Assembly (NCBI GenBank): GCA_014799805.1
Contig: JAAVHJ010000060.1
Coordinates: 1 to 37,258, forward strand
Length of the DNA stretch: 37,258 nucleotides
Direction: 5' to 3'
From: Ruminococcus sp.
GTDB taxonomy: Bacteria; Bacillota; Clostridia; Oscillospirales; Ruminococcaceae
A program made the position numbers and the translations under genes. The notes beneath the pieces are model-generated. The model saw only the letters and a program-made list of their open reading frames with translations, did not search any database and had not been told where the DNA came from. This document shows positions 1 to 14,018 of the stretch, in pieces. Within the stretch, counting starts at the first letter, position 1; the number at the start of each line of letters is the position of its first letter.

Positions 1-322
1 AAGGAAGAATATTTCCAATCACAATTCTGTTAATTTCTGTTGGCACAGTGACTTGATTACCAGCATGGTCGATAACTGTAATTGTATCATCAGAATTAAT
101 TTCTTCATTCTGGTTTTCTGTGTTAATATCGCTATCACTGTCAATATTGCTTTCTTCATCATTACTAATTTCTGTAGCTGGTTCATTGATAGTATCATTA
201 ACAGAATTATTTTCTGCTATGCTATCAGAATCATTTATTGTTTCATTGCTACAACCTCCAGCCATTAATAAAGCACTTGCTACTAAAGAGAATGCAACTA
301 ATTTTGCTAATATTTTTTTCAT
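1..322 (-). CDS. Substrate-binding lipoprotein of a metal-chelate/corrinoid-type ABC importer (3' end outside window)
   Basis: Only the first ~107 residues are in the window. They show a Lys-rich start, a hydrophobic signal segment and a lipobox (MAGGC), so the protein should be lipid-anchored outside the membrane. A long acidic, Asn/Ser-rich linker follows, then VIDHAGNQVTVPTEINRIV, the typical opening of FecB/BtuF-type binding proteins (D-x-x-G-x-x-V-x-V-P near the start of the mature domain). An AGAAAGG ribosome site precedes the ATG at 322. It lies 29 bases behind the nitrogenase-like subunit gene and is the last visible gene of the operon that also encodes the FecCD permease and ATPase. 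The ligand (ferric siderophore, haem, cobalamin or other chelate) cannot be read from this fragment. Confidence 0.8.
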   Translation of the reverse strand, partial: MKKILAKLVAFSLVASALLMAGGCSNETINDSDSIAENNSVNDTINEPATEISNDEESNIDSDSDINTENQNEEINSDDTITVIDHAGNQVTVPTEINRIVIGNILP

Positions 323-351
323 ATTTTTAAACCTTTCTAAAAAATAATTTA

Positions 352-1494
352 TCATAATTGATTTAAAATCCAGTCAAGACTATCTGTCATATCTGGCATA
401 ATATCATGATAGATTCTACCAGAAAAGCCTTCATGCCCAAGCGGAATAAATTTTGCTGATTTTGGACAAATTGGCTGATATAATGGGTCTGCAATGATAA
501 TTTCTGCTTGTTTTAAAATTGGAATTAATTCCGATTCATCACGGGCTATGCTATCATCATGGGCAAGCATAGCTTGTTCAAATTCTGTTGCAATCACAGA
601 TTTTACAGCTTTACCTGTTTCTAATTCTAAAGCTTTTGCAAGACTACCAGAGCTTACACCCTCACCAATCGTAATCATTTTGGCATTTTGCAGACGGTTT
701 TCCTGAAATAATACAGGATTTTTTATATTAGAAAAATTTTTAATTTCCTGTATTATCTCAGAAGTAAATTTTTTGCCATAAGGTCTGGCAATTAGATATG
801 GCATGTTGAATTTAGTTTTTAAATATTCTGCAACGCTTAGTCCTGCATAAGAAACAACAAGATTTAAGCTAGCAGATGGTGCAAGTTGCAATTGTTCTAA
901 ATTATCGCCCATGCTCCAACAGGAAATTACTTGAATTTGATTATTTTCAAGAATTTCACGCATATGTTGTACGCTATTATTAATTGAAAAGTCTAATGGC
1001 GTAACACCTAATAAATTCACAGATAAATTTTTTGTTTTTTCAACAGGGTTTATGACAAATTTTTTTGCTAATGCTTCCAAAGCTATAGAAATGCCTTGTA
1101 CATATGTATGCATACCATTTGTTGCTAATCCAAAAGCAGGAATGCCTGTTTGTTTTTCAATTACAGAAGCAATTGCTTTAAAATCTGTTCCAATCATCAT
1201 GGGAATTGGTGTTCCAGCAATCGCAACAAATTTTGGTGAAAGTTGTTCCGTTGCAGAAATAATATCCTGGATTAATTTTTCATCATCACCCATGATAGCC
1301 TCCATTTCTGAAATGCCAGATAGAAAAACCATACTGTCATAATCATACCAACGGGGTTCATCATGCGTATTATAAGTCGAATTACAGCCTGATGCATCAT
1401 GAATGACAGACATGCCACCCAATTCAAATAATGCTGAACATACACCAGAAACATCTGCTGTATAAGTTGAAATAATTCTTGCTGTTTGATTCAT
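352..1494 (-). CDS. Nitrogenase component 1-like subunit (NifK/BchB-type half)
   Basis: A 380-residue protein with the nitrogenase component 1 fold, shorter than true NifK (~520). The family hallmarks are an N-terminal Cys19 in DVSGVCSALF, Cys37 in HDASGCNSTYNTHDEPRW, a GTPIPMMIGTDF segment, and a C-terminal LGHEGFSGRIYHD. Cys37 and Thr95 are 58 residues apart, the same spacing as A. vinelandii NifK Cys95 and Cys153, so Thr95 sits where the third P-cluster cysteine would be. I see no equivalent of the NifD cofactor ligands. The ATG at 1494 overlaps the upstream gene's stop by 4 bases (ATGA), implying translational coupling and a 1:1 complex with that subunit. Known relatives include DPOR, COR, CfbD and the Mar methylthioalkane reductase; the substrate here is unknown. 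Confidence 0.82.
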   Translation of the reverse strand: MNQTARIISTYTADVSGVCSALFELGGMSVIHDASGCNSTYNTHDEPRWYDYDSMVFLSGISEMEAIMGDDEKLIQDIISATEQLSPKFVAIAGTPIPMMIGTDFKAIASVIEKQTGIPAFGLATNGMHTYVQGISIALEALAKKFVINPVEKTKNLSVNLLGVTPLDFSINNSVQHMREILENNQIQVISCWSMGDNLEQLQLAPSASLNLVVSYAGLSVAEYLKTKFNMPYLIARPYGKKFTSEIIQEIKNFSNIKNPVLFQENRLQNAKMITIGEGVSSGSLAKALELETGKAVKSVIATEFEQAMLAHDDSIARDESELIPILKQAEIIIADPLYQPICPKSAKFIPLGHEGFSGRIYHDIMPDMTDSLDWILNQL

Positions 1495-2816
1495 ATTTTA
1501 CCGCACCCCAATCCTTTGATTTGTACTAATTTTTTCGTATCTTTTTCTGTTAAAAATGCTTCTTCCAGTAATTCCAGTAAATTAATAATTCCAGAGAATC
1601 CCCACAATCCGCCATTTTCGACAATATTAATAAAATACGGTGTATTTAAAAAATAAGCGGCTTTTTGTCCAATTGCAATTATTTTGCTTTTGCTTTCACG
1701 GGGAAGCATACGCATTTTTATTTGAGATATTGCAAATAATTGCAAATCTGGATAATTTTCTTGTAACCAGTAAAAATCTTGTTTTTCTTCTTGTGAAAAA
1801 CTATCTGCATAAATTTTGCAAATATTTAATTTATGCTCTAGTAAAAATCTTGCTAATCCTAATGGACGCATTGTTGCAGAAGAGTCAATTGCAATTGGTG
1901 TATCGCCAATTAAATTTTTAACTTGTTTGATTTTATCTTCACATAAGGCAATTTGTTCTGACCAATCAGGAGGCATAATATTTAGATATGTTGCATAAAT
2001 GGTTAGCCAATGCTGAATTTCGCCATAAGAATAACTTAATGGCAAGTATAATAATTTCTGATTTAGTTTTTTTAATAGCATTTCCCCAGCAGGTTTTCCA
2101 GAAGCATGATAACAAATATTTGCTGTTGCTGATGCCATTTCTTGATATTCCTGATAATTTTTGCAGTCATGAATTTCTGTGACTTGATAGCCAGCAGATT
2201 CCGCTAACTGATATAATTCAGAATTTTTTTTAGTTGCAATATTATTGCCAATAATATTAATTTTTTTGCTGTCTTGTGGACGTTTGTGTAATAAACTATA
2301 TAATTGTCTTCGCATGGTTGGGTCAGGTGCCAAACCGCTTTTACGCATGATAGGATTCATGTAACAATCTGTAAAGTCAATCTCAGGATATTTTTTTCTA
2401 AGCGTTTGATAACAAAGTTTTAAATCACAGCCAATAAAATGATGGATACAGCTTGTAAAAATTTGTACAGCTTTTGGACGATACGGGAGCTGTTCTAAAA
2501 TATCAGAAACACCATTGATTAATAATTCTTCCATATTGCCTTCTAACACATTTTCTTCACGGATTTCAATTGTAGAAAATCTTTCAGAGGCTTGCATTTC
2601 GGCTGCTGTCAATACAACACCTCGCAAACAGCCAGCGGCACAGACATAAATTTCATGTGCTTCTGGCATTAAAAATCCTGTGTGAACAATATTCCAAGTG
2701 CCTCTGGCAGAGCAACTATATTCTAATTCTGTTTTAAATGGATTTGGAAAATTGGCATGTTTTAATAATAGCATAGCATTTGTACTATCTAATTCTTGTC
2801 CAAGTCTTTTCAGCAT
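1491..2816 (-). CDS. Nitrogenase component 1-like subunit (NifD/BchN-type half)
   Basis: The start at 2816 ([10 protein letters not shown]) is preferred over an in-frame ATG at 2834 because AGGAGG lies 7 bases upstream of it. This gives 441 residues, overlapping the nifH-like stop by 7 bases. Numbered from this start, cysteines fall at 35 ([11 protein letters not shown]), 59 and 63 (VCAAGC), 123 ([12 protein letters not shown]) and 130. The 24- and 64-residue spacings resemble NifD Cys62/Cys88/Cys154, so this half probably supplies three ligands of an interfacial Fe-S cluster. The C-terminal WGFSG segment also fits the family. The protein should pair with the 380-residue subunit encoded immediately downstream and receive electrons from the NifH-like protein encoded upstream. 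FeMo-cofactor ligands are not apparent, arguing against dinitrogenase. Confidence 0.82.
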
Positions 2817-3577
2817 GACGAATCCTCCTGACAAGCTTTTAAAATTTGTTCTGCTAATATTTTATATTCCTGTGCCATATCGCTTTCAGGAAAAGCTTCT
2901 ATTACTGTTTTTTGCAATTCTTCAGCATCTTGTACAGTTTCGCTACGGCTAAGTATGCCAATTAAACTTGTTTGAAATTCTTGACATAATTCAGAAACTT
3001 TTTCAAGTTCATTTTTTACATTGCGTTTATTTAAAATAATGCCTCCAAGCTGTGCATAGTTTCTATCTTGAAAATTCTGAACAGCCATTGCAATATTTGC
3101 AGTTGCATAAATTGCCATATTTTCACCAGAAGTAATAATAAAAATTTTATCTGCATAGCCATCACGCATTGGCATAGAAAATCCTCCACAGACAACATCG
3201 CCTAATACATCATAAATTACTACATCAGGATGATATTTTTCATAAAGCCCTTTTTTTTCTAAATTTTCAAGAGCTGTAATAATACCACGTCCAGCACAGC
3301 CAACACCTGCTTTAGGGCCTCCTGCTTCGACACAAATAACATTTTCATAGCCAAAACAAAACATATCTTCCAGTATAAAATTATTTTTCTTGTTTCTGAC
3401 TAAATCTAAAACACTTGTTAATTTTTTATCAGAATGCAATAAAAAAGTAGAATCTGCTTTCGGGTCACAGCCAATTTGTATGACTTTCAAGCCCTTTTTT
3501 GCAAGTACAGCAGAAATATTAGAAATTGTTGTTGATTTTCCGATTCCGCCTTTTCCGTAAACTGCAATTTTTAACAT
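2810..3577 (-). CDS. NifH/BchL-like ATP-dependent reductase (Fe protein)
   Basis: A 255-residue protein with near-perfect Fe-protein motifs: P-loop GKGGIGKST at the N-terminus, switch-region Asp in CDPKADST, the first 4Fe-4S ligand in GVGCAGRGI (with the Arg that is ADP-ribosylated in some NifH), and the second ligand in [12 protein letters not shown] homodimer should bind one 4Fe-4S cluster between subunits and pass electrons, driven by ATP hydrolysis, to the component-1-like proteins encoded next. An AGGAGG site sits just upstream of the ATG. The start overlaps the ABC ATPase gene by 7 bases. It is slightly shorter than NifH (~275-295). The family assignment is firm; which nitrogenase-like subgroup it serves is not. 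Confidence 0.93.
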
Positions 3578-4392
3578 AAATTTCCTCCTGTAGATAACTG
3601 ATTAGATTCTGCTAATTCTAATGGCAGAATGCTATAATAAACTTGATTTTGATTTTCAATTTTATGAATGATAGTTTTTACATGAAAAGCCTCTTGAATT
3701 TTTTCAGTTGTAATAATTTCAGAAGTTTTCCCAAATTTACAAGTGCCGTTTTTTTGTAATAATAATGCCTTATTAGAACGCCTTAAAGCATGGTCAGGAT
3801 AATGTGTATTAAAAATACAAGTCATGCCCTGTCTTGTAAGAGAAGACATTGTTTCTAAAATAATTAACTGATTCCGAAAATCTAAATTAGATTCTGGCTC
3901 ATCAAGAATTAATATTTTTGGTTCTGCAATTAAGGCTCTGGCAATTAAAACCATTTGTAATTCACCGCCACTCATTTCGGAACAGCTTTTTTTGGCTAAA
4001 TACAAAATATTTAATTTTTCCATAATTTCATGCACAAGCTTTAAATCTGATTGTTTTGGCTGTGAAAACATGCCTAAATGTGCATTTCTGCCTAATAAAA
4101 TCGCTTCTTCAGCTTTTGACGCAGAATTAAAATTTTTCGCTTGTGGGACATAGGCAATTTGTTTCCAAAGTGTTTTAATAGGAATCTGATTTAAATTTTT
4201 ATGATTTAAAAGCGTTTCTCCAGAATGCCATTTTAAAAAGCCTAACATGCAACGCAATAACGTTGTTTTGCCTGCACCGTTAGGACCTAGAATGGCAACT
4301 AAATCACCAGATTCTGCACTGAAATCAATATGATTTAATATTATTTTTTGCTTAGAATAGCCAAAACAGCCGTTTTTAATTTCTAGTTTCAT
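3571..4392 (-). CDS. ABC transporter ATPase, FecE/BtuD type
   Basis: The start was placed at 4392 ([17 protein letters not shown]). An upstream in-frame ATG at 4449 lies inside the permease gene and would add a non-conserved tail. The 273-residue product has Walker [10 protein letters not shown], a Q-loop (YVPQAKNF), signature [15 protein letters not shown], Walker [13 protein letters not shown] and an H-loop histidine (NTHYPDH). It energises import through the FecCD-type permease encoded one base upstream. The FecE family moves ferric siderophores, haem or cobalamin. Its position between the permease and the nifH-like gene, with overlap on the latter side, ties transport to the nitrogenase-like reductase. 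Confidence 0.92.
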
Positions 4393-4393
4393 G

Positions 4394-5422
4394 TTAGATT
4401 TTCCAACCCCCAGTTTTCCGCATGAGAATAATAAAAAATGGAGCGCCAATCATGGCTGTTAATACAGAAATTGGGATTTCTGATGCAGAAATACTTCTTG
4501 TCATTGTATCAACAATGACTAAAAATGATGCTCCAAAGCTAATACATGCAGGAATCAAAGCACGATGATTATTGCCAAACAGCATACGGCAAATATGTGG
4601 AATCAACAATCCAACCCAACCAACTTGCCCACACATTGCAACGCTGGACGCTGTCATTGCAGTTGCACAAAGAATTGTAATAATTCTCAAAAGCTGAATA
4701 TTACTGCCTAAAGAACGTGCTTCATCTTCACCTAGAGGCAAAATATTCAATTGCCAACGGAATAAATATAATATAAAAATAGTAATAATAATACATGGTG
4801 CGCCAATTTGTAAAGATGAAAATCCAGCACTGCTTAAACTGCCCATTAGCCAATAAGTGATTGCTGGAAGTTGGGATTCTGTATCAGCAGCGAATTTTAC
4901 AAGTGAGATTAATGCTGAAAACAATGACCCTATCATGATACCAGATAATACAACAGAATTTAATCCAGATGAAGATTTTCCCGCAGAGCTAAGCCATGTT
5001 AGCAAAACTGCTAATATTCCAAAACCAAAAGCAATTGCCTGAACACCAATGAAATTACAGCCTAACAGCAAAGCAAGTGCTGCACCAAATGATGTACCAG
5101 AGGCAACTCCCAATGTATCAGGCGTTGCTAACGGGTTAGAAAATAACCCCTGAAATGCACAGCCTGAAACAGATAGTCCAGCTCCAACAAGCATTGCCAT
5201 GAGAATTCTTGGTAATCTAATATTCCAGATAATCATTGAAATTTGCTTATCAATTTCTATATCAGAATTTGTAATTTTTGAAATAAAAACTTGCCAAATC
5301 TCACTGATTGGATAAGAAATTCTTCCAATGCATAACGCAAAAAAAGCAAATATAACTGGCATAATAATTAAAATAATATTCCAGACAGGTTTCAGGGCTT
5401 GAATTTGCTTTTTGGAATTCAT
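4394..5422 (-). CDS. ABC transporter permease, FecCD/BtuC type
   Basis: A 342-residue polytopic membrane protein of the FecCD family. It has an N-terminal helix, the motif GAGLSVSGCAFQGLFSNPLATPDTLG near residue 80, a central LSGIMIGSLFSALISL segment, and GQVGWVGLLIPHICRMLFGNNHR near residue 265. These are the classic permease/ATPase coupling regions of siderophore and cobalamin importers. About ten membrane segments are expected. Its ATG overlaps the TGA of the TM1266-like gene by 4 bases, and the ATPase begins one base after its stop. Only one permease gene is present, so it probably acts as a homodimer. Confidence 0.93.
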   Translation of the reverse strand: MNSKKQIQALKPVWNIILIIMPVIFAFFALCIGRISYPISEIWQVFISKITNSDIEIDKQISMIIWNIRLPRILMAMLVGAGLSVSGCAFQGLFSNPLATPDTLGVASGTSFGAALALLLGCNFIGVQAIAFGFGILAVLLTWLSSAGKSSSGLNSVVLSGIMIGSLFSALISLVKFAADTESQLPAITYWLMGSLSSAGFSSLQIGAPCIIITIFILYLFRWQLNILPLGEDEARSLGSNIQLLRIITILCATAMTASSVAMCGQVGWVGLLIPHICRMLFGNNHRALIPACISFGASFLVIVDTMTRSISASEIPISVLTAMIGAPFFIILMRKTGGWKI

Positions 5423-5694
5423 TCTGTATTCACCCTTGCAGTAATATTAGAATATGCTGTTTTTGCTGAAATACCAGTTAATCTTCCAATTTTTCCAGTT
5501 AGTGTATTAATTTTATCCTGTGGTGCGTCAATTGCAACACTGATAATATTAATATTGCGTTTATGATAAGGAATGCCCATTCTGCCGATAATATAATTGC
5601 TATATTCATGAAGCAATTGATTTAATGCGTCAACTTGGTCTGGATTTTCAACAATAATGCCAATAATAGCAACTCTTGTTTCTGGTGTATTCAA
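5419..5694 (-). CDS. TM1266-family small regulator (iron-only hydrogenase system regulator-like)
   Basis: A 91-residue protein whose sequence (VAIIGIIVENPDQVDALN, YIIGRMGIPYHKRNINIISVAIDAP) matches the TM1266 family, small ferredoxin-fold/ACT-like proteins often found beside [FeFe]-hydrogenase maturation genes. The start codon is TTG at 5694, set by AGGAGG eight bases upstream. It is the first gene of the operon with ABC importer and nitrogenase-like genes, and overlaps the permease start by 4 bases. The family's biochemical role is poorly known. A ligand- or metal-sensing regulatory function for this operon is an inference from position. Confidence 0.82.
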   Translation of the reverse strand: MNTPETRVAIIGIIVENPDQVDALNQLLHEYSNYIIGRMGIPYHKRNINIISVAIDAPQDKINTLTGKIGRLTGISAKTAYSNITARVNTE

Positions 5695-5703
5695 AAAATA
5701 TCC

Positions 5704-5851
5704 CTCCTAAAAATAAAAATATGCTATATCCTGAAAAAAGGATATAGCACGGTTCTGAAAACTAAAATCTAAAATTAAATTTCATAAATGATTCAAGACA
5801 AAATGCTATATGCTTTCGCTTTAATAACAATTATTTCAGCGTCAGGATACA
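5704..5851 (-). promoter_or_regulatory. Long 5' leader with possible attenuator upstream of the nitrogenase-like operon
   Basis: About 155 bases separate the predicted transcription start (~5851) from the TTG start. Near its end is a perfect 10-bp hairpin (arms 5740-5749 and 5722-5731) followed by a U-rich run. Two upstream segments can compete: 5804-5811 (ATATAGCA in the RNA) repeats part of the 3' arm and can pair with the 5' arm, while 5843-5849 (TATCCTG in the RNA) can pair with CAGGATA at the top of the 3' arm. This is the layout of a transcription attenuator. I do not recognise any known riboswitch core. Confidence 0.5.
5709..5749 (-). terminator. Intrinsic terminator-like hairpin within the leader
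   Basis: On the minus strand TGCTATATCC, an 8-base loop and GGATATAGCA form a perfect 10-bp stem. TATTTTTATTTTT follows, ending just before the AGGAGG ribosome site. Its position in front of the first gene suggests conditional termination. Confidence 0.55.
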
Positions 5852-5857
5852 ACAAAC

Positions 5858-5886
5858 AGTATAACACAAAATTTTTGATTTGTCAA
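5858..5886 (-). promoter_or_regulatory. Sigma-A promoter of the nitrogenase-like/ABC operon
   Basis: Minus-strand TTGACA (5881-5886), 17-base spacer, TATACT (5858-5863). The -35 box overlaps the TGA stop of the upstream HD-domain gene. Confidence 0.75.
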
Positions 5887-6419
5887 TAATTTTTTTGCAA
5901 TTTTCTATGACGATATTTTTTAAAAAAATGAATGAAATTTTTCGGTTGTGGCAATATAAATTCTATCATAGCACAGTATTTATCTACAAAAGTAATTAAA
6001 TAAGTTTCTGCATATTTGGGCTTTTCTGGTGTGAGAGGCCACATGTGATTATAAATCATATCCCTTTCAAGGTCATTTAATTTTATGATTTTTTCGGCAT
6101 TGTGTAATGCAGTTTGGGGATGATATTTGCAATGTTTTACAGCTGGTTTCTGTCTGATATAATGTTTCGTATCATAGAAATACAAATCATGCAAAAGTCC
6201 TGCTCTTGCACCAGAATTTGCATCTAATTTAAAAAATCTGCAAATTTTATAATGATAATAAGAAACATTTAAGCAATGCTGAAATCTTGTTGTTGTGATA
6301 TGATGTTGATAATTTTTTAATTTTTGAATTTCTGGCAAATTTAATAAATCTGCAATGACACTATAATATTCTGATTGTAGAATATTTTTTCTTGAACCAG
6401 TAATTTTCAAATTTTGCAT
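5883..6419 (-). CDS. HD-domain protein (putative metal-dependent phosphohydrolase)
   Basis: The start is placed at 6419 (MQNLKITGSRKN), which has an AGAGGA ribosome site and lies downstream of a strong promoter. The longer reading frame to 6512 runs through that promoter. The 178-residue product has an HD-type metal-binding pattern: His in TRFQHCLNV, the HD pair in GLLHDLYFYD, further His residues in KYHPQTALHNAEK and IYNHMWPL, and a late Asp in FVDKYCAM. Such proteins usually hydrolyse phosphate esters or nucleotides; the substrate is not evident. It resembles the short HDIG-type proteins of Clostridia. It is a single gene ending where the next operon's promoter begins. Confidence 0.7.
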   Translation of the reverse strand: MQNLKITGSRKNILQSEYYSVIADLLNLPEIQKLKNYQHHITTTRFQHCLNVSYYHYKICRFFKLDANSGARAGLLHDLYFYDTKHYIRQKPAVKHCKYHPQTALHNAEKIIKLNDLERDMIYNHMWPLTPEKPKYAETYLITFVDKYCAMIEFILPQPKNFIHFFKKYRHRKLQKNY

Positions 6420-6452
6420 AAATATTGTCCTCTTTTCCGAGTAATTGCTTTT

Positions 6453-6481
6453 ATCATAACATGTTTTTTTTACTTTGTCAA
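6453..6481 (-). promoter_or_regulatory. Promoter of the HD-domain gene
   Basis: Minus-strand TTGACA (6476-6481), 17 bases, TATGAT (6453-6458). It lies inside the extended reading frame and so supports the downstream start at 6419. Confidence 0.7.
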
Positions 6482-6521
6482 GGGATTTTGAAATATAATA
6501 TACTATTTCCACAAATTTAAT

Positions 6522-7028
6522 TTATATCACTTCTCCATTTTGAATATTAATTATTTTTTCCTGCCAATGACCAGGCGGATCCATTTCACAGCTAATTTTT
6601 AAAAATTGTTTGTCATCTTGTGTAAAAACTTCATGAATAATCACGCCGTCTACCGCAAGCGTTTCATTTTTCCAGATTGTTTGTAATGTAGAACTTACGG
6701 CAATAATACCAGTCCCAGAAGCAATATATAATATATTTTCATGAATAAAGAAATAGCCAAAATAAAAATCTACTTGCATGGAAATAGACCCTAGAGATTC
6801 TAAATTTACAAAAATAACACTGCTACCTGTTCCAATACATAAATATTTTCCAAAAATACAAGCTTTATCAAAATATTCTGAAATAGCATCTACTTGAGCG
6901 ACCAGATAGGGAATATTATTTTTCGTGACGAAATATTTTTTTCCATTTCCGAATGAAACAGTTTGAATGACAGGCATATCAAGGCTATCACAATGTTCAA
7001 ATTTTTCAACTAACTGATAATTTGTCAT
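6522..7028 (-). CDS. Protein of unknown function, beta-rich
   Basis: A 168-residue protein I do not recognise. It has no signal peptide or membrane segment. The sequence alternates short hydrophobic beta-like strands with turns (FGKYLCIGTGSSVIFVNLES, ILYIASGTGIIAVSS), reminiscent of propeller blades, with the repeated element IGTGS/IASGTGI, and ends in MDPPGHWQEKIINIQNGEVI. It has its own near-consensus promoter. The ATG at 7028 is followed by the HD-domain promoter region after its stop, so it is probably monocistronic. Confidence 0.6.
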   Translation of the reverse strand: MTNYQLVEKFEHCDSLDMPVIQTVSFGNGKKYFVTKNNIPYLVAQVDAISEYFDKACIFGKYLCIGTGSSVIFVNLESLGSISMQVDFYFGYFFIHENILYIASGTGIIAVSSTLQTIWKNETLAVDGVIIHEVFTQDDKQFLKISCEMDPPGHWQEKIINIQNGEVI

Positions 7029-7080
7029 AATAACAATCCTTTCTTGATTTTAAAAATATCAAAATAAATACACAAGTTTT

Positions 7081-7109
7081 ATTATAGCATAAAAATTTTA
7101 AAAAGTCAA
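7081..7109 (-). promoter_or_regulatory. Promoter of the unknown gene 6522-7028
   Basis: Minus-strand TTGACT (7104-7109), 17 bases, TATAAT (7081-7086), about 50 bases before the ATG. Confidence 0.7.
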
Positions 7110-7174
7110 ATCATGTCTAATACAAAAAATCATGACTTGTTATTAACGAATTTGTAAAATTTTAATAAATCGTA

Positions 7175-7203
7175 TTGACAAAAATTTCTTGCTGTGCTAT
7201 AAT
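7175..7203 (+). promoter_or_regulatory. Promoter of enolase
   Basis: TTGACA (7175-7180), 17-base spacer, TATAAT (7198-7203): a full consensus sigma-A promoter, fitting a strongly expressed glycolytic gene. Confidence 0.85.
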
Positions 7204-7257
7204 AGTAAATGAAAAAATACGGGAAAGAAAAAATTAACCCGTGAAGAAAGGATTTGA

Positions 7258-8562
<1,305 letters not shown>

Positions 8563-8584
8563 TCAGATTTTTTTGAAAAATATT

Positions 8585-8617
8585 GCTCCTGTTTTTACAG
8601 GGGCATTATTTTTTTTA
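8585..8617 (+). terminator. Terminator after enolase
   Basis: Stem GCTCCTGT (8585-8592) with ACAGGGGC (8597-8604), one G-U pair, then a T-rich run to about 8617. Confidence 0.85.
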
Positions 8618-8626
8618 ATATTTCTC

Positions 8627-8655
8627 TTGACAAAATAAAAATTATGTTATATAAT
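8627..8655 (+). promoter_or_regulatory. Promoter of the DUF2325 gene
   Basis: TTGACA (8627-8632), 17 bases, TATAAT (8650-8655). Transcription should begin close to the shared palindromic element at 8664. Confidence 0.8.
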
Positions 8656-8663
8656 AAATATAG

Positions 8664-8690
8664 ATTTAAGTAAGCAGTTGCTAACTAATA
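8664..8690 (+). promoter_or_regulatory. Palindromic start-site element shared with the Tp47-like gene
   Basis: A 27-base imperfect palindrome beginning 9 bases after the -10 box. It begins ATTTAAGTAAGCA and ends ACTAATA. The same element (23 of 27 bases identical, no gaps) sits at 32854-32880, 10 bases after the -10 box there. It could be a DNA operator (the half-sites resemble DtxR/IdeR-type TTAGGTTAGC boxes) or a 5'-end RNA hairpin. Confidence 0.55.
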
Positions 8691-8722
8691 AAAATATTTT
8701 ATAAAAAAGGCAGGTTATTATT

Positions 8723-9010
8723 ATGAGTGTTGTAATTGTTGGTGGAAATGACAGCATGACAAGGCAATATAAAGATATTTGCAAAGCTTATCAATGTCGT
8801 GCAAAAGTATTTACACAAATGCATGATGGATTGAAACATAAAATTGGTTCACCAGATTTACTAGTATTATTTACAGGTACAGTGTCACATAAAATGCTGA
8901 AAATTGCATTAAATGCCACTAGTAAAGATACTAGGGTTATTCGTTCACATACTAGCTCTGCAACAGCATTGCGAAATATTTTACAAGAACATACAGCTGG
9001 ATTTCATTAA
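8723..9010 (+). CDS. DUF2325 family protein
   Basis: A 95-residue protein matching DUF2325: MSVVIVGGNDSM start, a central PDLLVLFTGTVSHKMLKIAL and a C-terminal RSHTSSATALRNILQE. The family is short, cytoplasmic and of unknown biochemical function. The VIVGG start looks like a nucleotide-binding fold fragment, and the conserved FTGTVSHK/HTSSATAL pair is the family signature. It stands alone between a consensus promoter and a strong terminator. It shares its start-site element with the flavin electron-transfer operon at 32.9 kb, suggesting co-regulation. Confidence 0.85.
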   Translation: MSVVIVGGNDSMTRQYKDICKAYQCRAKVFTQMHDGLKHKIGSPDLLVLFTGTVSHKMLKIALNATSKDTRVIRSHTSSATALRNILQEHTAGFH

Positions 9011-9029
9011 AAATCCAGCTGATTATTTT
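8994..9029 (+). terminator. Terminator overlapping the end of the DUF2325 gene
   Basis: Perfect 11-bp stem CAGCTGGATTT (8994-9004) with AAATCCAGCTG (9011-9021), 6-base loop holding the stop codon, then ATTATTTTT. Confidence 0.85.
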
Positions 9030-9033
9030 TATA

Positions 9034-10074
9034 TTATTTTTTTTCTTGATTTTCTTGTAAATGCTTTTCGCAATTTTTTAATAATTCTTTTGCCGCTGGG
9101 TCGTTGGTTAATTCACAAATTACATGCAAATAAAATACAGCTTCTTGCCAATTTTTCTTTTCTACTGCCTGATTTGACATAGAAGTCACAGTATGCATAA
9201 TTTCTTCACAAGGACCATTTGGGATTTTATATTTTGCAAAGGCAGATAATACTTCTTCACGGGTTGGCGGTGCAATTTTTTTGCCCATAAGTTGAGAAAT
9301 ATTTTGTAATTCGCCACGGATTGCAGGGTGATTATAAAATATCATGCTTTCAAAATAAAATGCAATGGCACTTTCATAATCTTTCAGTTCTGTGCAGTAA
9401 TAGCCCATATTGGCATAGCATCTTGACAAAGCATAAGCTGACATGCAGACAGGAAGCGTTTCTTTAATTGTAATCAAAAGTTTTTGCTTTTCATGCATTA
9501 ATTTATATACTTCTGCAAGCTCAAATCTTGCGTCAGCACATACGGGATTAAATCGAATGGCTTCGTTTAATACTGGAATTGCTTCTTCCAAACGGCGAAC
9601 TTCTACCAGATTATAAGCGTGTAAGCCTAAATATAGCATAAAATCAAATGGAGCTTGTAATAAATTTTTTGTCGGATGATAGAGCTGATAATATAAATTA
9701 GATTCCAGTAAATTATGAAAACTGAAAAATCTTGCCGTTTCTGTTTCTTTATAATTTTCTATAATATGCTGATATAATTGCTTTGACAAAGTAAGCGATT
9801 TTGCTGTTTGATTTTGCAATCTAAGTCTATTCGCTTCACCATAAACTGCATCTAAACGGCGTTGACCAATATAAAGCAATTTATTTAAATATTCTGATTG
9901 TTCTTTTGGCATTTTACTCATCGCAAGTTCTGTTAGTGCATTCGCAACTTCTGCATTTTTCTGTGATGCATAAAAAGCAACCTGTTCTTTTAAGAACAAC
10001 ATGTCTTTTGTTAAATCACCTGTTAATTGTTTTTTGACAGATTCTATTATTTCATTTTTTTCTAACTCAGTCAT
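9034..10074 (-). CDS. TPR-like helical repeat protein
   Basis: A 346-residue cytoplasmic protein with no signal peptide. Residues ~165-260 carry tetratricopeptide-like repeats (EEAIPVLNEAIRFNPVCADARFELAEVYK; ALSRCYANMGYYCTELKDYESAIAFYFESMIFY), with a further helical pair near 300-335. TPR domains bind partner proteins. It is the third gene of a minus-strand operon after the 801-residue disordered protein and the small protein sharing that protein's C-terminal motif, so those two are the likely partners. AGAAAGG lies 12 bases before the ATG. No enzymatic motif is visible. Confidence 0.75.
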   Translation of the reverse strand: MTELEKNEIIESVKKQLTGDLTKDMLFLKEQVAFYASQKNAEVANALTELAMSKMPKEQSEYLNKLLYIGQRRLDAVYGEANRLRLQNQTAKSLTLSKQLYQHIIENYKETETARFFSFHNLLESNLYYQLYHPTKNLLQAPFDFMLYLGLHAYNLVEVRRLEEAIPVLNEAIRFNPVCADARFELAEVYKLMHEKQKLLITIKETLPVCMSAYALSRCYANMGYYCTELKDYESAIAFYFESMIFYNHPAIRGELQNISQLMGKKIAPPTREEVLSAFAKYKIPNGPCEEIMHTVTSMSNQAVEKKNWQEAVFYLHVICELTNDPAAKELLKNCEKHLQENQEKK

Positions 10075-10098
10075 AGTTAATTAAACCTTTCTGTTTTT

Positions 10099-10575
10099 TT
10101 ATTTTTTCTTTGTTCTGGGAGACCATTCCCTGTAGCCCTGAATTACAGGTTCATTTTTGGGTGTCTGATAAGAAGTCGTGTCTTGTCCAAGTCCATTCAG
10201 TGCGGACAGCACATCTCCTGCAACAGTTTGTGGTGGTGTTGGTAAATTTTCCTGAAAAGCCTGACTTGTGGGTATATTAGAATGTCCTGTAGCAACAGGA
10301 TTCTGCATAACAGGCTGGTGAAATAAAGCTGGCTGTGGATAAGCTTGTTGACGAGGTGATTCTATGACAACAGATGTTGCATCAGTTGTCATGCTAGCAA
10401 TTTCTAAATCACTTGCAATATCTGCAAGTTCTTTAATAAATTCAGCATCATCTTTTTTGTCAGCAAATAATTTCATAATATTTAATAATAATAACGTACC
10501 ATTTTTGGGGTCATTCATAAGCTGACTACGGATAGCGGCATGTACTGCCTCACGTTTCATAGCTGACATAGTCAT
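10099..10575 (-). CDS. Small protein with C-terminal VIQGYxEWxPR motif
   Basis: Unrecognised protein of about 158 residues. The start at 10575 (MTMSAMKREAV) or 10569 fits an AAAGGA site better than the in-frame ATG at 10599. The N-terminal ~70 residues are helical (AAIRSQLMNDPKNGTLLLLN). The middle is Pro/Gln-rich and probably disordered. The end, SALNGLGQDTTSYQTPK then EPVIQGYREWSPR, is closely mirrored at the C-terminus of the upstream 801-residue protein. The two are encoded in one operon, separated by a large inverted repeat. The shared tail suggests a common docking partner. Confidence 0.65.
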   Translation of the reverse strand: MTMSAMKREAVHAAIRSQLMNDPKNGTLLLLNIMKLFADKKDDAEFIKELADIASDLEIASMTTDATSVVIESPRQQAYPQPALFHQPVMQNPVATGHSNIPTSQAFQENLPTPPQTVAGDVLSALNGLGQDTTSYQTPKNEPVIQGYREWSPRTKKK

Positions 10576-10594
10576 TCTGTCCTTTCTGAATACA

Positions 10595-10645
10595 GGCAAT
10601 TATTTGCAGTTAGATTAAAAATTTAATTTTCTACAAATAATTGCC
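10595..10645 (-). repeat. Intercistronic inverted repeat
   Basis: GGCAATTATTTG (10595-10606) and CAAATAATTGCC (10634-10645) form a perfect 12-bp stem around a 27-base AT-rich loop. It lies between the 801-residue protein gene and the small-protein gene. There is no T-run after it on the coding strand, so it is more likely a processing or stability element than a terminator. Confidence 0.55.
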
Positions 10646-10674
10646 ACACATGATGTTAGATTTTATTTTTTATA

Positions 10675-13080
10675 TTATAAATTTTTTTTATGAAGACCTT
10701 TTTTAAAATCTGCAAGTTTTTTATCGTCTCTTTCTCTTGGTCGCCATTCTTTGTAACCTTGAATTACAGGTTCTTCTTCCTCTTTTTGAGGCTTATTAAA
10801 TGAACTGGTATCTGCACCCATTTGGCTTAAAGCGGAAGTAATATCTGTTAAGACTTCTACTTTTTTGCCTTGCTGGTCAAAAATATTTGTACCAGTTTGC
10901 GTGGCTGTTTTTGCAATTGCATTACGAACAGAATCAGGTATCACAGTATTTTGCCCAATTGTAGAAACACGAACCCCTTGTGAAACGGGTTGTTGTGGTG
11001 CAGGTGTTCCATAAGGAGCAGCTGTATGAACTGCAGGAGCAGGTGCAGGCTGTGGATAAACTGGTTGCTGTGGTGGTACATATTGTGGCTGTGAATAAGC
11101 AGGCTGATTATAAATCGGTTGCTGTGGGTAAACAGGTTGTTGTTGATACATAGGCTGATACCCCATAGAACCTATTGGCGGTGCAGAGAATGCATTGATA
11201 TCATCATCAGCAATTGTTGGCACTTCGGCAAGTGTAGGAACTTCTGGAATATCTGCATTTGCATCTGCTTCAAATGGATTAGATGGAATATCTGGCACAT
11301 TCGGAACATTTGGAATATCTAGTGTAGGAACACTTGGAATATCCAGTGCAGGAACATTTGGAATGTTGAGTTCAGGAACATTCGGAATGTCAAGTTCAGG
11401 AACATTTGAAATGCCTAAATTTTCTAAATTTGGCAAACTGAATTCTGGTACAGGCACTTTTGCAGCAGCGGCAGCATTCATTGCAGCGGTTGCAGCCTGA
11501 AGATTTCCAGCGGCGGCATTCATTGCAGCAGTTGCAGCCCGAATATCTTCCACAGTCAATTGATTTTCTTTTTTAGATGTTTTCACTGTTTCTTGTGGTA
11601 CATAGTCTTCCGTGTCCTCATCGTCATCATCATCAGAGGGGGCATAACTGGAACCATGATATTCTTCATCGTCATCATCATCATCAAAATAATCATCATC
11701 ATCATAGTCATCGTCGTCATCATCATCGTCATCATAATCTTCTAAACGTGTATTGACAACTCTAGACATATATTCAAATTCATCATCTTCTTTATTTTCT
11801 TCTTTTGGAGCCATTTCAAAACTATCCAATTCATCTGCGACAGGTTGTAAAACAGATTCTTTAATTACTTGTGTATTATTTAAAGATGAGGCGTTTAACT
11901 GTGGCACTTCCAAATTGTCAAAATCTGCAATAGCTGGCGTTTCTGGTTCTGTTGGTGCAGGTTGTATATTTTGTTCTTCCTTTTGCTTTTCTTCATTGAA
12001 TTTTTCAAGCAATTCTTGAAGCGTTTTTTCTTCTTTTTCAGAGCGTTTTTGACCAAATTCGGCTAAAATTTCTTCCATGCTAGTAATTGGTTTAGCTACA
12101 GGTTCTTGTGTTGGACTTAATATCGATTTTTCTTGTTCTGGAATTGCAAATTGTGCTAGTGTATCATCGACATCGATTGCGTTAAAATCCTGTGTAGATG
12201 CAGAATTTTCTACAGAGTTTGGTGTATCTGTATGATTTAATGCAAACTGTGCAAGCATATCATCGACATCAATTGCATTAGAATCTTGTGCAGGCGTAGA
12301 ATTTTCTACAGAGTTTAATATATCTGTATGATTTAATGCAAATGTATCATCGACATCAACCGCATTAGAATCTTGTGCAGGTGTGAAATTTTCTTCTGGC
12401 ACATTCGCATTTGGAATTGCAAATTGTGCTAACATATCATTCATTGCATCAGACGCTGTTTTATCTGCTTCTTGCTGTTCAGCTAGCACGTTTGGATTTT
12501 TACTATTATCAGATGCAAATGCTGCTGCGGTGGGATCTTCCTGTGTGCCAAGCATGAATTTTGAAAGCTCGTCATCCATTCCCATTGGATTTGCACTAGC
12601 AGGTGATTTTTGTTTTTTAGATGGTGGTACCCATTCTTCATATTGTGGCAAAAAGGAATCATCTAAGTCTGGTACATCTGGCACTGTGGGAGCAGGTTCT
12701 GGCTCTGATGGAGCAACTGGTGCAACAGGCTGTACAGGAGCTGGTGCTGGTGGTGGTGATACTGGCTGAATTCTTGGACGCTCCTGTCCTGTAGAGCTAG
12801 TATCTGGGGTACTCTCATAGTTAATTATTCCTTTTTTCTCAGCTTTTAATTTTTGTTTCATCGCCTTACGGTCACTTTTTAGAATTCTAGGCGTGAAATA
12901 ATTTTGACAATTCTGACAATTTACTTTGTCAAGAAAAACCATTAAATCTGAAAAATCTTCTGTACCAGCTGGTGATAACTGGCTTGCATTTTTCAATTTT
13001 GTTCTGCAACCAGTCGCTTTTTGATTCGCTGATGCATGAATCGTTCCATCTTTGGTATCACGATACAAAAAAAGTTGCAT
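10675..13080 (-). CDS. Large disordered Asp/Pro-rich protein with N-terminal Cys motif
   Basis: An 801-residue protein I cannot assign. The N-terminal ~80 residues look folded: MQLFLYRDTKDGTIHASANQ, then Cys25 and C55-x2-C58, a possible zinc knuckle, followed by a basic helix. The rest is low-complexity: a Pro/Val segment, several copies of an acidic short motif (VDDMLAQFAL, VDDTLAQFAIP, MEEILAEFG), an almost pure Asp/Tyr/Glu stretch around residues 445-490, Ala-rich helices, seven-residue LDIPNVP-type repeats around 550-610, and a Gln/Pro/Tyr-rich segment. It ends with EEPVIQGYKEWRPRE, shared with the next gene. No signal peptide or membrane segment is present. It may be a scaffold for the downstream TPR protein. 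Confidence 0.7.
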   Translation of the reverse strand: MQLFLYRDTKDGTIHASANQKATGCRTKLKNASQLSPAGTEDFSDLMVFLDKVNCQNCQNYFTPRILKSDRKAMKQKLKAEKKGIINYESTPDTSSTGQERPRIQPVSPPPAPAPVQPVAPVAPSEPEPAPTVPDVPDLDDSFLPQYEEWVPPSKKQKSPASANPMGMDDELSKFMLGTQEDPTAAAFASDNSKNPNVLAEQQEADKTASDAMNDMLAQFAIPNANVPEENFTPAQDSNAVDVDDTFALNHTDILNSVENSTPAQDSNAIDVDDMLAQFALNHTDTPNSVENSASTQDFNAIDVDDTLAQFAIPEQEKSILSPTQEPVAKPITSMEEILAEFGQKRSEKEEKTLQELLEKFNEEKQKEEQNIQPAPTEPETPAIADFDNLEVPQLNASSLNNTQVIKESVLQPVADELDSFEMAPKEENKEDDEFEYMSRVVNTRLEDYDDDDDDDDDYDDDDYFDDDDDDEEYHGSSYAPSDDDDDEDTEDYVPQETVKTSKKENQLTVEDIRAATAAMNAAAGNLQAATAAMNAAAAAKVPVPEFSLPNLENLGISNVPELDIPNVPELNIPNVPALDIPSVPTLDIPNVPNVPDIPSNPFEADANADIPEVPTLAEVPTIADDDINAFSAPPIGSMGYQPMYQQQPVYPQQPIYNQPAYSQPQYVPPQQPVYPQPAPAPAVHTAAPYGTPAPQQPVSQGVRVSTIGQNTVIPDSVRNAIAKTATQTGTNIFDQQGKKVEVLTDITSALSQMGADTSSFNKPQKEEEEPVIQGYKEWRPRERDDKKLADFKKGLHKKNL
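11285..11430 (-). repeat. Tandem coding repeat (LDIPNVP-type)
   Basis: About seven imperfect ~21-base units encode variants of NVPELDIPNVP in the 801-residue protein. The strand shadows on the plus side are long because of this repetition. Confidence 0.7.
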
Positions 13081-13154
13081 TGCAAAAATCCTCCTTTATG
13101 AATTTTGGTGCTAAAAATAATTAACTTGCACCTGATTTTTTATTGTTTATTTAT

Positions 13155-13183
13155 ATCATAACATATTTTTAGAAAAAAATCAA
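13155..13183 (-). promoter_or_regulatory. Promoter of the 801-residue protein/TPR operon
   Basis: Minus-strand TTGATT (13178-13183), 17 bases, TATGAT (13155-13160). It lies ~75 bases before the ATG. The rest of 13184-13289 is AT-rich with nothing recognisable. Confidence 0.6.
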
Positions 13184-13289
13184 CTGTTTTTTAAAGAAAA
13201 TCTAAAATTTACTGTTAGTATTATTTTGCTTAAAATATTAATCTTATAATTTGTTTGGCTATTATAATTTTAAAAAATAAAAAATAGCA

Positions 13290-13318
13290 TTGCATTTTTT
13301 TAGTAACTATGCTAAAAT
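13290..13318 (+). promoter_or_regulatory. Promoter of the flavin reductase-like gene
   Basis: TTGCAT (13290-13295), 17 bases, TAAAAT (13313-13318), 40 bases before the ATG. Confidence 0.55.
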
Positions 13319-13357
13319 ATAAAAAATAAATGATAAAAAAGGAGTTGCTTATAATAT

Positions 13358-13924
13358 ATGAGTAAAATAATCTGGAAAGGCAGTGCTTTGCTTGCACCTG
13401 TACCACCTGCACTTGTTACTTGCGGTACAATAGAAAATCCTAATGTTTTCACTGTGGCTTGGACAGGCATTGTCTGCACACATCCGCCAATGACATATAT
13501 TTCAATCAGACCAACAAGATATTCTTATGAAATAATTAAAAAATCAAAAGAATTTGTGATTAATTTGCCAACTTCATCTATGAGCAAAATTACAGATTTC
13601 TGTGGTATGAAATCTGGTGCAAAAATCAATAAAATTAAACACTGTAATTTAGAAATTTCTTCAGCTGGTATTGTAAAAGCACCTGTTTTAGTTCAATGTC
13701 CTGTTAGTTTAGAATGTCAGGTGATAGAAATTAAGCATCTTGGAACACATGATATGTTTTTAGCAAATATTCTTGCTGTACAAGTAGAAGAAAAATATCT
13801 TAATAGCAAAGGCAAATTAAATTTACAGCAAGCGGGATTATTGGCTTATGCACATGGAGAATATTTTGCATTGGGGAGAAAATGCGGTGATTTTGGATTT
13901 TCTGTCAAGAAAAAACGAAGATAA
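13358..13924 (+). CDS. Flavoredoxin/flavin reductase-like FMN-binding protein
   Basis: A 188-residue protein of the flavin reductase-like domain family (flavoredoxin type). It opens with KGSALLAPVPPALVTCGTIENPNVFTVAWTGIVCTHPPMTYISIRP, where the AWTG and PPM..ISI segments form the FMN site. It continues with SYEIIKKSKEFVINLPT and closes with HGEYFALGRKCGDFGFSVKKK. The family binds FMN and either transfers electrons or reduces flavins with NAD(P)H; the physiological partner is unknown. AAGGAG precedes the ATG. It is monocistronic, in front of the cellulase gene's own promoter. Confidence 0.88.
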   Translation: MSKIIWKGSALLAPVPPALVTCGTIENPNVFTVAWTGIVCTHPPMTYISIRPTRYSYEIIKKSKEFVINLPTSSMSKITDFCGMKSGAKINKIKHCNLEISSAGIVKAPVLVQCPVSLECQVIEIKHLGTHDMFLANILAVQVEEKYLNSKGKLNLQQAGLLAYAHGEYFALGRKCGDFGFSVKKKRR

Positions 13925-13954
13925 ATTAACTATGAATAAACTATATAAAATCTA

Positions 13955-13983
13955 TTGACATTTTTGAAAAAAAAGATTATAAT
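13955..13983 (+). promoter_or_regulatory. Promoter of the GH9 cellulase
   Basis: TTGACA (13955-13960), 17 bases, TATAAT (13978-13983), 36 bases before the ATG. Confidence 0.8.
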
Positions 13984-14018
13984 TAATATAAAATTATGAT
14001 TCTGAAAGGAGAAATTTT

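Follow-up and report, generated by a model that had tools for sequence, protein, structure and literature searches.

A nitrogenase-like operon that probably stands in for HydG in the maturation of [FeFe] hydrogenases

The window analysed here is a stretch of 37,258 nucleotides from Ruminococcus sp. (assembly GCA_014799805.1, JAAVHJ010000060.1; contig C60, G000:C60, from base 1), whose genome amounts to 2.48 Mb on 76 contigs at 88% completeness. At its beginning, seven genes on the minus strand follow each other in the order TM1266-FecC-FecE-NflH-NflN-NflE-FecB and code for a putative regulator, an importer of the ATP-binding cassette (ABC) type and a nitrogenase-like enzyme, Nfl. A comparison with related loci and genomes suggests that Nfl probably replaces the enzyme HydG in the assembly of the H-cluster of [FeFe] hydrogenases. 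The features of the locus, in the direction of transcription, are as follows (AF2, AlphaFold2; pLDDT, predicted local distance difference test).

5858..5886, minus strand: sigma-70-like promoter, predicted from sequence (TTGACA 5886-5881, TATACT 5863-5858)
5799..5859, minus strand: leader RNA, candidate riboswitch aptamer (model R1, 43.5 bits, E 2.6e-8, the window row being part of the model)
5709..5750, minus strand: intrinsic terminator-like hairpin (hairpin 5750-5721, -16.6 kcal/mol, T-rich tail)
5419..5694, minus strand: TM1266-family iron-only hydrogenase system putative regulator (TIGR03959, 116.8 bits, cut-off 60.8)
4394..5422, minus strand: FecC, FecCD-type permease (PF01032, 294 bits)
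3571..4392, minus strand: FecE, ABC ATPase (PF00005, 114 bits)
2810..3577, minus strand: NflH, NifH-like ATP-dependent reductase (PF00142, 293 bits; below the NifH, CfbC, BchL and BchX cut-offs)
1491..2816, minus strand: NflN, component-1 subunit, 441 amino acids (PF00148, 71 bits; AF2 pLDDT 83, nitrogenase fold)
352..1494, minus strand: NflE, component-1 subunit, 380 amino acids (PF00148, 109 bits; AF2 pLDDT 82)
1..322, minus strand: FecB, substrate-binding lipoprotein, N-terminal part (BLAST to the full-length FecB of loci L011/L012, Peripla_BP_2)

An earlier note on this DNA had described seven same-strand genes with tight junctions and short component-1 subunits, and this description was borne out. 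All genes are encoded on the minus strand, and six pass the Pfam cut-offs for the expected families (TM1266-like 110 bits, FecCD 294, ABC_tran 114, Fer4_NifH 293, Oxidored_nitro 109 and 71). TM1266 and FecC overlap by 4 bases, FecC and FecE lie 1 base apart, FecE/NflH and NflH/NflN each overlap by 7 and NflN/NflE by 4 bases, and the last junction, NflE/FecB, is a gap of about 29 bases (FecB ATG at 322). The subunits of 441 and 380 residues are indeed short; for NflN, the start is the ATG at 2816, with an alternative TTG at 2834. FecB is cut by the contig end, leaving about 107 residues (322 to the contig start), and since it is truncated the fragment has no Pfam match. With the lipoprotein domain shown in relatives, the three Fec proteins form a FecBCD-type importer (FecCD permease, ABC ATPase, Peripla_BP_2 lipoprotein). 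The only PF00148 matches in the genome at E 0.001 are the two component-1 genes of the operon, and an “uncultured Ruminococcus” metagenome-assembled genome (MAG; L038) has an NflN with 98% identity to the one in the window. HydE and a group A6 [FeFe] hydrogenase are present elsewhere in the genome, and no HydG over the cut-off was found in it (88% complete). The leader RNA and terminator (5859-5709) had been absent from the earlier note, and the hydrogenase-maturation context becomes visible only in relatives.

Homologous loci were collected in a scan of named genomes, of which the best 80 of 335 were kept; genes were annotated by BLAST with score floors, and many of the contigs are short. Among these 80 loci, TM1266 is present in 58, FecC in 59, FecE in 62, FecB in 65, HydE in 31, HydF in 28 and HydG in none. 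Linkage to [FeFe]-hydrogenase maturation genes is common: 40 of the 80 carry HydE or HydF, and 64 carry HydE, HydF or TM1266, the window itself having TM1266 only. All nine genes occur in 14 loci, eleven of which keep the order TM1266-FecC-FecE-HydE-NflH-NflN-NflE-FecB-HydF (in one of the eleven, L078, the predicted FecC start precedes TM1266). The other three deviate: HydE comes first in L058, and in L076 and L087 HydE opens the operon and FecC, FecE, HydF and TM1266 close it. Two HydE and one HydF from nine-gene operons pass the curated cut-offs. For comparison, 20 HydG loci were fetched; the operon TM1266-HydE-HydG-HydF is whole in eight (L232, L238-L241, L243-L245) and cut or dispersed in the others. 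Judged by gene order, Nfl occupies the slot that HydG takes in maturation operons.

The distribution of the two systems was examined in 343 genomes drawn from the class, for which 90% completeness was asked (the window's genome was included at 88%). The draw was searched for HydE and HydG with curated cut-offs and for NflN with a profile of 28 sequences, yielding 228 genomes with HydE, 213 with HydG and 24 with NflN matches. The latter fall into three score ranges, with 16 genomes from 467 bits upwards (Nfl1), five between 195 and 337 bits (Nfl3) and three between 20 and 59 bits. HydG was found in none of the 16 Nfl1 genomes; all 16 carry HydE and thus belong to the 21 genomes with HydE and without HydG, as opposed to 207 with both. 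Among HydE-positive genomes without Nfl1, 207 have HydG and five do not (Fisher test 1.4e-20; kinship is ignored in all Fisher tests given here). Six further genomes have HydG without HydE (G223, G247, G273, G286, G316, G388), which makes the totals agree. The Nfl1 genomes span seven families, six of which (f1, f24, f27, f34, f59, f61) also hold genomes with HydG and without Nfl1; a sign test over the families holding both states gave 0.03, and f24 and f59 each include one genome with neither system (G104 and G398). Even within one genus (g120), six species have Nfl1 and no HydG, and three genomes (G239, G365, G436) have HydG and no Nfl1. An earlier small set had given the same picture, with HydG in none of six Nfl1-positive genomes and in all six others. 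[FeFe] hydrogenase was present in all 40 genomes searched, 31 of which are Nfl1-positive handles (G144 and G428 being one assembly).

In the named genomes, HydG was checked for 50 of the 80 loci, a set that overlaps the draw (L067=G031, L070=G476, L072=G039, L076=G078, L083=G017, L085=G428). No HydG over the cut-off was found in 44 of the 50, including Clostridium ljungdahlii, C. ragsdalei, C. carboxidivorans, C. luticellarii and C. muellerianum. One genome counted as HydG-negative (that of L110) retains only the C-terminal third of HydG. L249 (5460-5945), in the Nfl1-positive genome G163, holds the C-terminal third of hydG, as if the gene were decaying; G163 is a MAG, and an assembly cause is possible.

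The earlier note had also claimed a tight link to the importer. At least one Fec gene is present in 69 of the 80 loci, in agreement with this claim. Homologues lacking the importer, which the note had named as a refutation, do exist: at ten of the 50 named loci, no FecBCE gene accompanies Nfl. These importer-less homologues are the most informative observation of the analysis. HypD was detected in all ten of their genomes versus one of the 40 with an importer (Fisher 1.1e-9, again irrespective of kinship), and in this single case (the genome of L087) HypD shares one contig with a match to PF00374. The draw repeats the pattern: HypD and a second NflN-type copy each occur in all ten Nfl1 genomes without an importer at the locus (type B) and in none of the six with it (type A). 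As background, 11 of 50 genomes with HydE and HydG and without Nfl1 carry HypD, as does one (G398) of the five lacking both HydG and Nfl1. The [NiFe] hydrogenase large subunit (PF00374) was found in none of the 16 Nfl1 genomes of the draw, of type A or B.

In the type B regions fetched, a second set, Nfl2HNE, is followed by HypF-HypC-HypD-HypE, HypC and several others being known by BLAST only; in G422 this set is split over two contigs, and in G458 Nfl1 lies on another contig. Further arrangements are Nfl2HNE-HypFCDE-TM1266-Nfl1NE-HydF in L172 (HypF, HypD, HypE, TM1266 and HydF pass their cut-offs, HypC by BLAST only), TM1266-HydF-HydE-Nfl1NE-Nfl2HNE-HypFCDE in L174, and Nfl2HNE-HypFCDE-TM1266-Nfl1NE-HydF-HydE in L207, the last adjoining a group A6 hydrogenase gene. 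C. ljungdahlii, C. ragsdalei and C. carboxidivorans carry Nfl1 and Nfl2. From gene content, the importer and HypFCDE (with Nfl2) look interchangeable. On the Nfl1 tree the two forms are mixed, the importer locus L058 being sister to the Hyp loci L095/L103; the best tree has seven changes between them, of which supported branches force two. A paired test on this tree had only two pairs, too few to reach significance.

Two features of the type B locus L065 may be added. Nfl2N and Nfl2E appear as one open frame of 820 residues (2773-5235), possibly a gene fusion, and an aspartate ammonia-lyase gene (13707-15038) stands directly after HydF; ammonia-lyases have been implicated in the dithiomethylamine ligand, as stated in the part consulted of PMC11736057.

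A second line of evidence comes from the leader RNA. The element has 59 positions and consists of a stem P1, a CUGAC internal loop and a stem P2 with a tandem G-A and A-U core. It was found with a strict pattern, after a looser first pattern had given false matches, and a covariance model was built from 29 sequences. P2 is paired in 94% of cells with two-sided changes in five of seven pairs, and its columns 19-22/48-51 vary on both sides; P1 is weak (57% paired). The whole leader has 39 double changes versus 17.7 in shuffles and a covariation of 0.376 versus 0.238 (slid controls 0.063-0.158). Two of five measures do not exceed the shuffles, namely pairs with two-sided changes (7 vs. 6.7) and further pair types (14 vs. 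16.6). The 5' arm of the terminator can pair with the 3' strand of the leader (5815-5804), and an alternative fold of the truncated leader reaches -22.0 kcal/mol. Competing folds are predicted for leader and terminator. The element is a candidate riboswitch, and its covarying structure lies upstream of functionally related genes. No Rfam family matched the leader (window 1-8000; seven loci at gathering scores; four loci at E 5).

Model matches at E ≤0.01 over 148 sources (about 2.0 Mb) numbered 7 and 35 and were mostly the model's own sequences; 13 loci were new (L011, L012, L045, L050, L052, L056, L061, L070 = L179, L073, L100, L106, L115, L117). Every match is on the operon strand, ahead of TM1266, FecC, HydF, Nfl2H or HydG. 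The leader preceding HydF is that of L174, between TM1266 and HydF; in L180 the element precedes the Nfl2-Hyp operon, and in L060 and L078 the predicted gene start overlaps it. It also stands ahead of TM1266-HydE-HydG-HydF in L240, and ahead of HydG itself in L122, which belongs to the genome of L082, where both systems are present. Among the 20 HydG loci, it was found ahead of TM1266 in two at E 1e-9 and in one at 0.002, and a further three gave weak matches at this position (E 0.03, 0.25 and 3). Independent of gene order, the occurrence of one leader ahead of HydG operons and of Nfl operons supports a common function.

A second leader copy was seen between TM1266 and FecC in L054 (5967-6026) and L055 (5964-6022), and lower-score matches lie likewise between these genes in L088, L114 and L117. 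Upstream of the operon in the window, on the same strand, a protein of 168 amino acids is encoded (6522-7028), with no Pfam or NCBIfam match at E 0.01.

The window proteins reach no nitrogenase-type NCBIfam equivalog cut-off. NflH scores 318 bits against NCBIfam nifH (cut-off 394), and membership in Nif is rejected on profile cut-offs and the component-1 tree. Identity with dark-operative protochlorophyllide oxidoreductase (DPOR) or chlorophyllide oxidoreductase (COR) is rejected as well (BchB 67.5 of 490 bits, BchL 205 of 345, BchX 160 of 331); on the component-1 tree, Nfl lies apart from BchNB, with long BchN and BchB branches and no BchYZ included. CfbCD identity fails on score (CfbC 313 of 402, CfbD 40.6 of 268) and on the presence of two component-1 genes as opposed to a homomeric CfbD. 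As for Mar, represented by one Treponema Mar-like set identified by gene context alone, its D and K fall outside the Nfl clades, and its H groups with NifH, near Nfl3H and not Nfl1H. The component-1 tree was built quickly, and its references (one NifDKEN, one BchNB and one Mar-like set, no CfbD) stand on long branches. In the tree of the H subunits, NifH and the Mar-like H sit amid the Nfl3H rows and outside both Nfl1H and Nfl2H, and the BchL branch is very long; the placement of NflH is unsure. The view of the earlier note that these proteins represent an uncharacterised clade of the nitrogenase superfamily is upheld by scores below the equivalog cut-offs and by the position apart from NifDKEN, BchNB and the Mar-like set on the component-1 tree.

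AF2 models (alignments of 28 and 24 sequences; low confidence near the presumed Fe-S sites) predict a nitrogenase component-1 fold for NflE and NflN with pLDDT 82-83, NflE being nearest to NifE and BchB. Solved proteins are very distant from both, with best profile scores of 74 bits for NflE and 38 bits for NflN. When NflE is aligned to NifD, Ser215, nearly invariant in 24 sequences, takes the position of Cys275, which we take to be the ligand of the iron-molybdenum cofactor (FeMo-co), in line with the earlier observation that such a ligand is lacking; the alignment ends at about profile position 261, short of alpha-His442. Invariant in 37 of 37 sequences are the cysteines of a CxxxC and a TSC motif in NflN and one cysteine in NflE, which we take to fit a bridging Fe-S cluster as in DPOR, rather than a cofactor site.

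Concerning the ligand of the importer, FecB has conserved W, Y, K and R residues, which do not indicate a ligand. Four FecB proteins compared with siderophore and haem binders scored 29-55 bits with SstD and 34-41 bits with IsdE, all below the cut-offs. The earlier suggestion of an imported corrinoid or haem found no support. The importer-less lineages carry Nfl2 and HypFCDE, the latter being the enzymes that make an iron-cyanide-carbonyl unit. In the same vein, no cobalamin, NiCo or molybdenum-cofactor riboswitch belonging to the operons was detected (window 1-8000; seven loci; four loci); in L059, a cobalamin riboswitch stands ahead of a different ABC gene, about 5.5 kb downstream of FecB. 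Because Nfl2 and HypFCDE accompany Nfl1 where the importer is absent, the imported compound more likely belongs to iron-cyanide-carbonyl chemistry. Overall, the uncharacterised clade and the importer link of the first reading stood, its corrinoid or haem substrate gained no support, and [FeFe]-hydrogenase maturation had not been foreseen.

HydG, a radical S-adenosylmethionine (SAM) enzyme, uses tyrosine to make an Fe(CO)x(CN) unit. HydE, which needs an Fe(CO)2(CN)-type unit, finishes the [2Fe] centre together with HydF. To our knowledge, the H-cluster has no known source of its CO and CN ligands other than HydG. Based on gene order, the co-occurrence with HydE, the near-exclusion of HydG, the leader that also precedes some HydG operons and the exchange of FecBCE for Nfl2-HypFCDE, we conclude that the Nfl module very probably replaces HydG. 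As a whole, the operon is probably best explained as a HydG-replacing module for H-cluster assembly. HydE and HydF would be retained, and NflH with NflN-NflE would deliver the iron unit for HydE. NflN-NflE would carry a simple Fe-S centre and not FeMo-co; NflH would spend ATP to pass low-potential electrons to NflNE, which may reduce an iron-bound precursor, X, to the substrate of HydE. Lineages with FecBCE, such as that of the window, would import X or its iron-cyanide core. Lineages without it would make X themselves, using cyanide made by HypF/HypE from carbamoyl phosphate, HypCD and Nfl2, and Nfl1 would convert the iron-cyanide(-carbonyl) intermediate into the HydE substrate.

The identity of X is a more delicate matter. 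An iron-cyanide-type unit, i.e., an Fe-CN(-CO) species, is a plausible candidate, just short of an even chance. More tentatively, an Nfl step might make CO by reduction, e.g., from CO2. According to the sections consulted of a 2025 review (PMC12134894), carbamoyl phosphate supplies the cyanide made by HypF and HypE, and Fe(CN)2CO is put together on HypCD. Neither the origin of CO in anaerobes nor the electron donor of HypD is settled there; reaching CO from CO2 would take about -530 mV and ATP; and labelling in R. eutropha ruled out added CO2 as the direct CO source. An ATP-driven nitrogenase-like reductase would fit the low-potential need of the CO2 route. It is also conceivable, although unlikely, that a ready-made iron-cyanide/carbonyl complex from neighbours is imported, trimmed or reduced by NflHNE and built into the H-cluster by HydE/HydF, with the leader sensing the synthon or its ligands. 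If true, this would be the first pathway of organometallic scavenging, in which window-type bacteria do not make the diatomic ligands.

Several observations weigh against a replacement of HydG by Nfl. First, the two systems are not strictly exclusive: six of the 50 named Nfl-positive genomes also have HydG (two Intestinibacter bartlettii, one of them a complete chromosome, C. thailandense and three MAGs), and in the window's own genome HydG may have been missed at 88% completeness. Second, five HydE-positive genomes of the draw have neither HydG nor Nfl1 (G104, G222, G302, G344, G398). Two of these, G104 (L218, 5103-8523) and G302 (L247, 6065-8535), both at 99% completeness, hold an intact TM1266-HydE-HydF with the HydG slot empty, which calls for a third route, auxotrophy or loss. 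Third, the leader was not found ahead of the operon in 14 of the 20 HydG loci, and no residue or structure points to the substrate of Nfl. Fourth, a [NiFe] large subunit is present in six of the ten named importer-less genomes (absent in four). Four of these six (C. carboxidivorans, C. muellerianum, C. thailandense and the genome of L065) have a second HypD on the contig of the [NiFe] hydrogenase; C. ljungdahlii and C. ragsdalei have a single HypD, which could serve the [NiFe] hydrogenase. Finally, Nfl3-FecBCE occurs without HydE or HydF nearby (L182-L184, L217, L219), and Nfl3 is found in HydG-positive genomes (G228, G293, G280) and in G288, which lacks HydE and HydG. The occurrence of Nfl3-FecBCE outside maturation means that FecBCE-Nfl alone does not imply H-cluster assembly; either the pair of import and Nfl is used outside it, or X has other uses.

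Regarding Nfl3 itself, L184 (G288, 8368-14553), L182, L183 and L217 have NflHNE-FecBCE without TM1266, HydE or HydF nearby, and G288, in which HydE and HydG are below cut-off, has one Fe_hyd_lg_C match (205 bits). Outside Firmicutes, the Treponema saccharophilum plasmid pTS1 (L219, 5640-13296) carries an Nfl3 set with FecB, FecC, FecE and a second FecB; no hydrogenase genes are annotated within the 19 kb seen, and this set was the only match in a plasmid search for NflN relatives at E 0.01. Downstream of FecB, a Hpre_diP_synt_I gene lies in L011 (6259-6798) and a NusG_II gene in L012 (6420-6803).

The genomes G104 and G302, with HydE and HydF and neither HydG nor Nfl1, also speak for a different explanation, in which another, unrecognised radical SAM protein, or free CO and CN- from metabolism, replaces HydG and Nfl is co-regulated but has a different task, e.g., to activate HydF, HydE or the hydrogenase reductively. 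For acetogens, the portions used of PMC9431212 propose atypical radical SAM proteins or an activation of about 1% by HydE and HydF alone with trace diatomics. We regard this explanation as improbable, as it accounts neither for the position of Nfl in the HydG slot nor for the swap of HypFCDE for the importer in genomes without [NiFe] hydrogenase. It is quite doubtful, too, that an iron chelate, haem or corrinoid is imported and reduced by FecBCE-Nfl simply to supply iron for the H-cluster: iron alone would not permit the loss of HydG, and HypFCDE with Nfl2 is not an iron source, even if FecB weakly resembles siderophore- and haem-binding proteins (SstD, IsdE, below cut-offs) and Nfl3-FecBCE occurs outside hydrogenase loci. 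That the HydG gap is an artefact of assembly or detection in incomplete genomes, many being MAGs and the window's 88% complete, is highly improbable given the 90% completeness asked in the draw (the window's genome excepted), HydG in 207 of 212 non-Nfl genomes of equal quality, and its absence also from single-contig G269, cultured C. ljungdahlii and C. carboxidivorans (complete chromosome).

A replacement of HydG by Nfl would touch on several earlier reports. NifHEN-like genes were noted beside an ABC ATPase in C. botulinum and A. oremlandii and, in a single sentence, beside hydrogenase maturation genes in Coprococcus catus, and a role in metallocluster assembly was suggested (Dos Santos et al., 2012, PMC3464626, as far as excerpted); unlike here, the excerpts contain no missing HydG, HypFCDE exchange, leader RNA or pathway. 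For C. ljungdahlii, C. ragsdalei, C. carboxidivorans, C. coskatii and strain AWRP, the parts used of PMC9431212 report HydE and HydF with hydG undetectable and unexplained, and assign HydG by motif to C. autoethanogenum, C. drakei and C. scatologenes, which are outside the genomes analysed here. C. autoethanogenum, a close relative, has an electron-bifurcating [FeFe] hydrogenase (Wang et al., 2013, cited in the partial text of PMC9004356); a term search of that text, on a transposon screen in this species, gave no nitrogenase, nif, HydE or HydF. In the open-licence literature, no paper was found that ties Nfl to a missing HydG, to the Hyp exchange or to a leader RNA, nor, judging by titles, one devoted to the TM1266 family. 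If true, a nitrogenase-like alternative to HydG would explain the HydG-less gas-fermentation acetogens (PMC9431212, in the parts named) and give a role to an unassigned clade of the nitrogenase superfamily. Moreover, HypFCDE-linked Nfl pairs an ATP-driven low-potential reductase with HypCD and thus bears on the origin of the CO ligand in anaerobic [NiFe] maturation, named the most pressing question in the sections seen of the 2025 review (PMC12134894).

Compared with known systems, the closest likeness is to canonical [FeFe] maturation (HydE, HydF, HydG, TM1266): HydE, HydF and TM1266 are kept, often in one operon, and the leader is found on some HydG operons too, whereas HydG would here be replaced by NflH-NflN-NflE with FecBCE or with Nfl2-HypFCDE. 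Importer-less lineages share homologues of HypF, C, D and E with the Fe(CN)2CO assembly of [NiFe] hydrogenases (HypCDEF), yet no [NiFe] large subunit is present in ten of ten type B genomes, and Hyp stands in an operon with Nfl, HydF or HydE. NifEN, MarDK, BchNB and CfbCD resemble Nfl in the NifH-like ATPase and the component-1 fold, the nearest folds being nitrogenase subunits, NifE and BchB. In contrast to these systems, the Nfl clades are separate (CfbD not being in the tree), the subunits are short, a Ser takes the place of the presumed FeMo-co Cys, and the window operon has no NifB-type gene. The single families are ordinary, and the novelty lies in their combination and in the reaction that this combination suggests.

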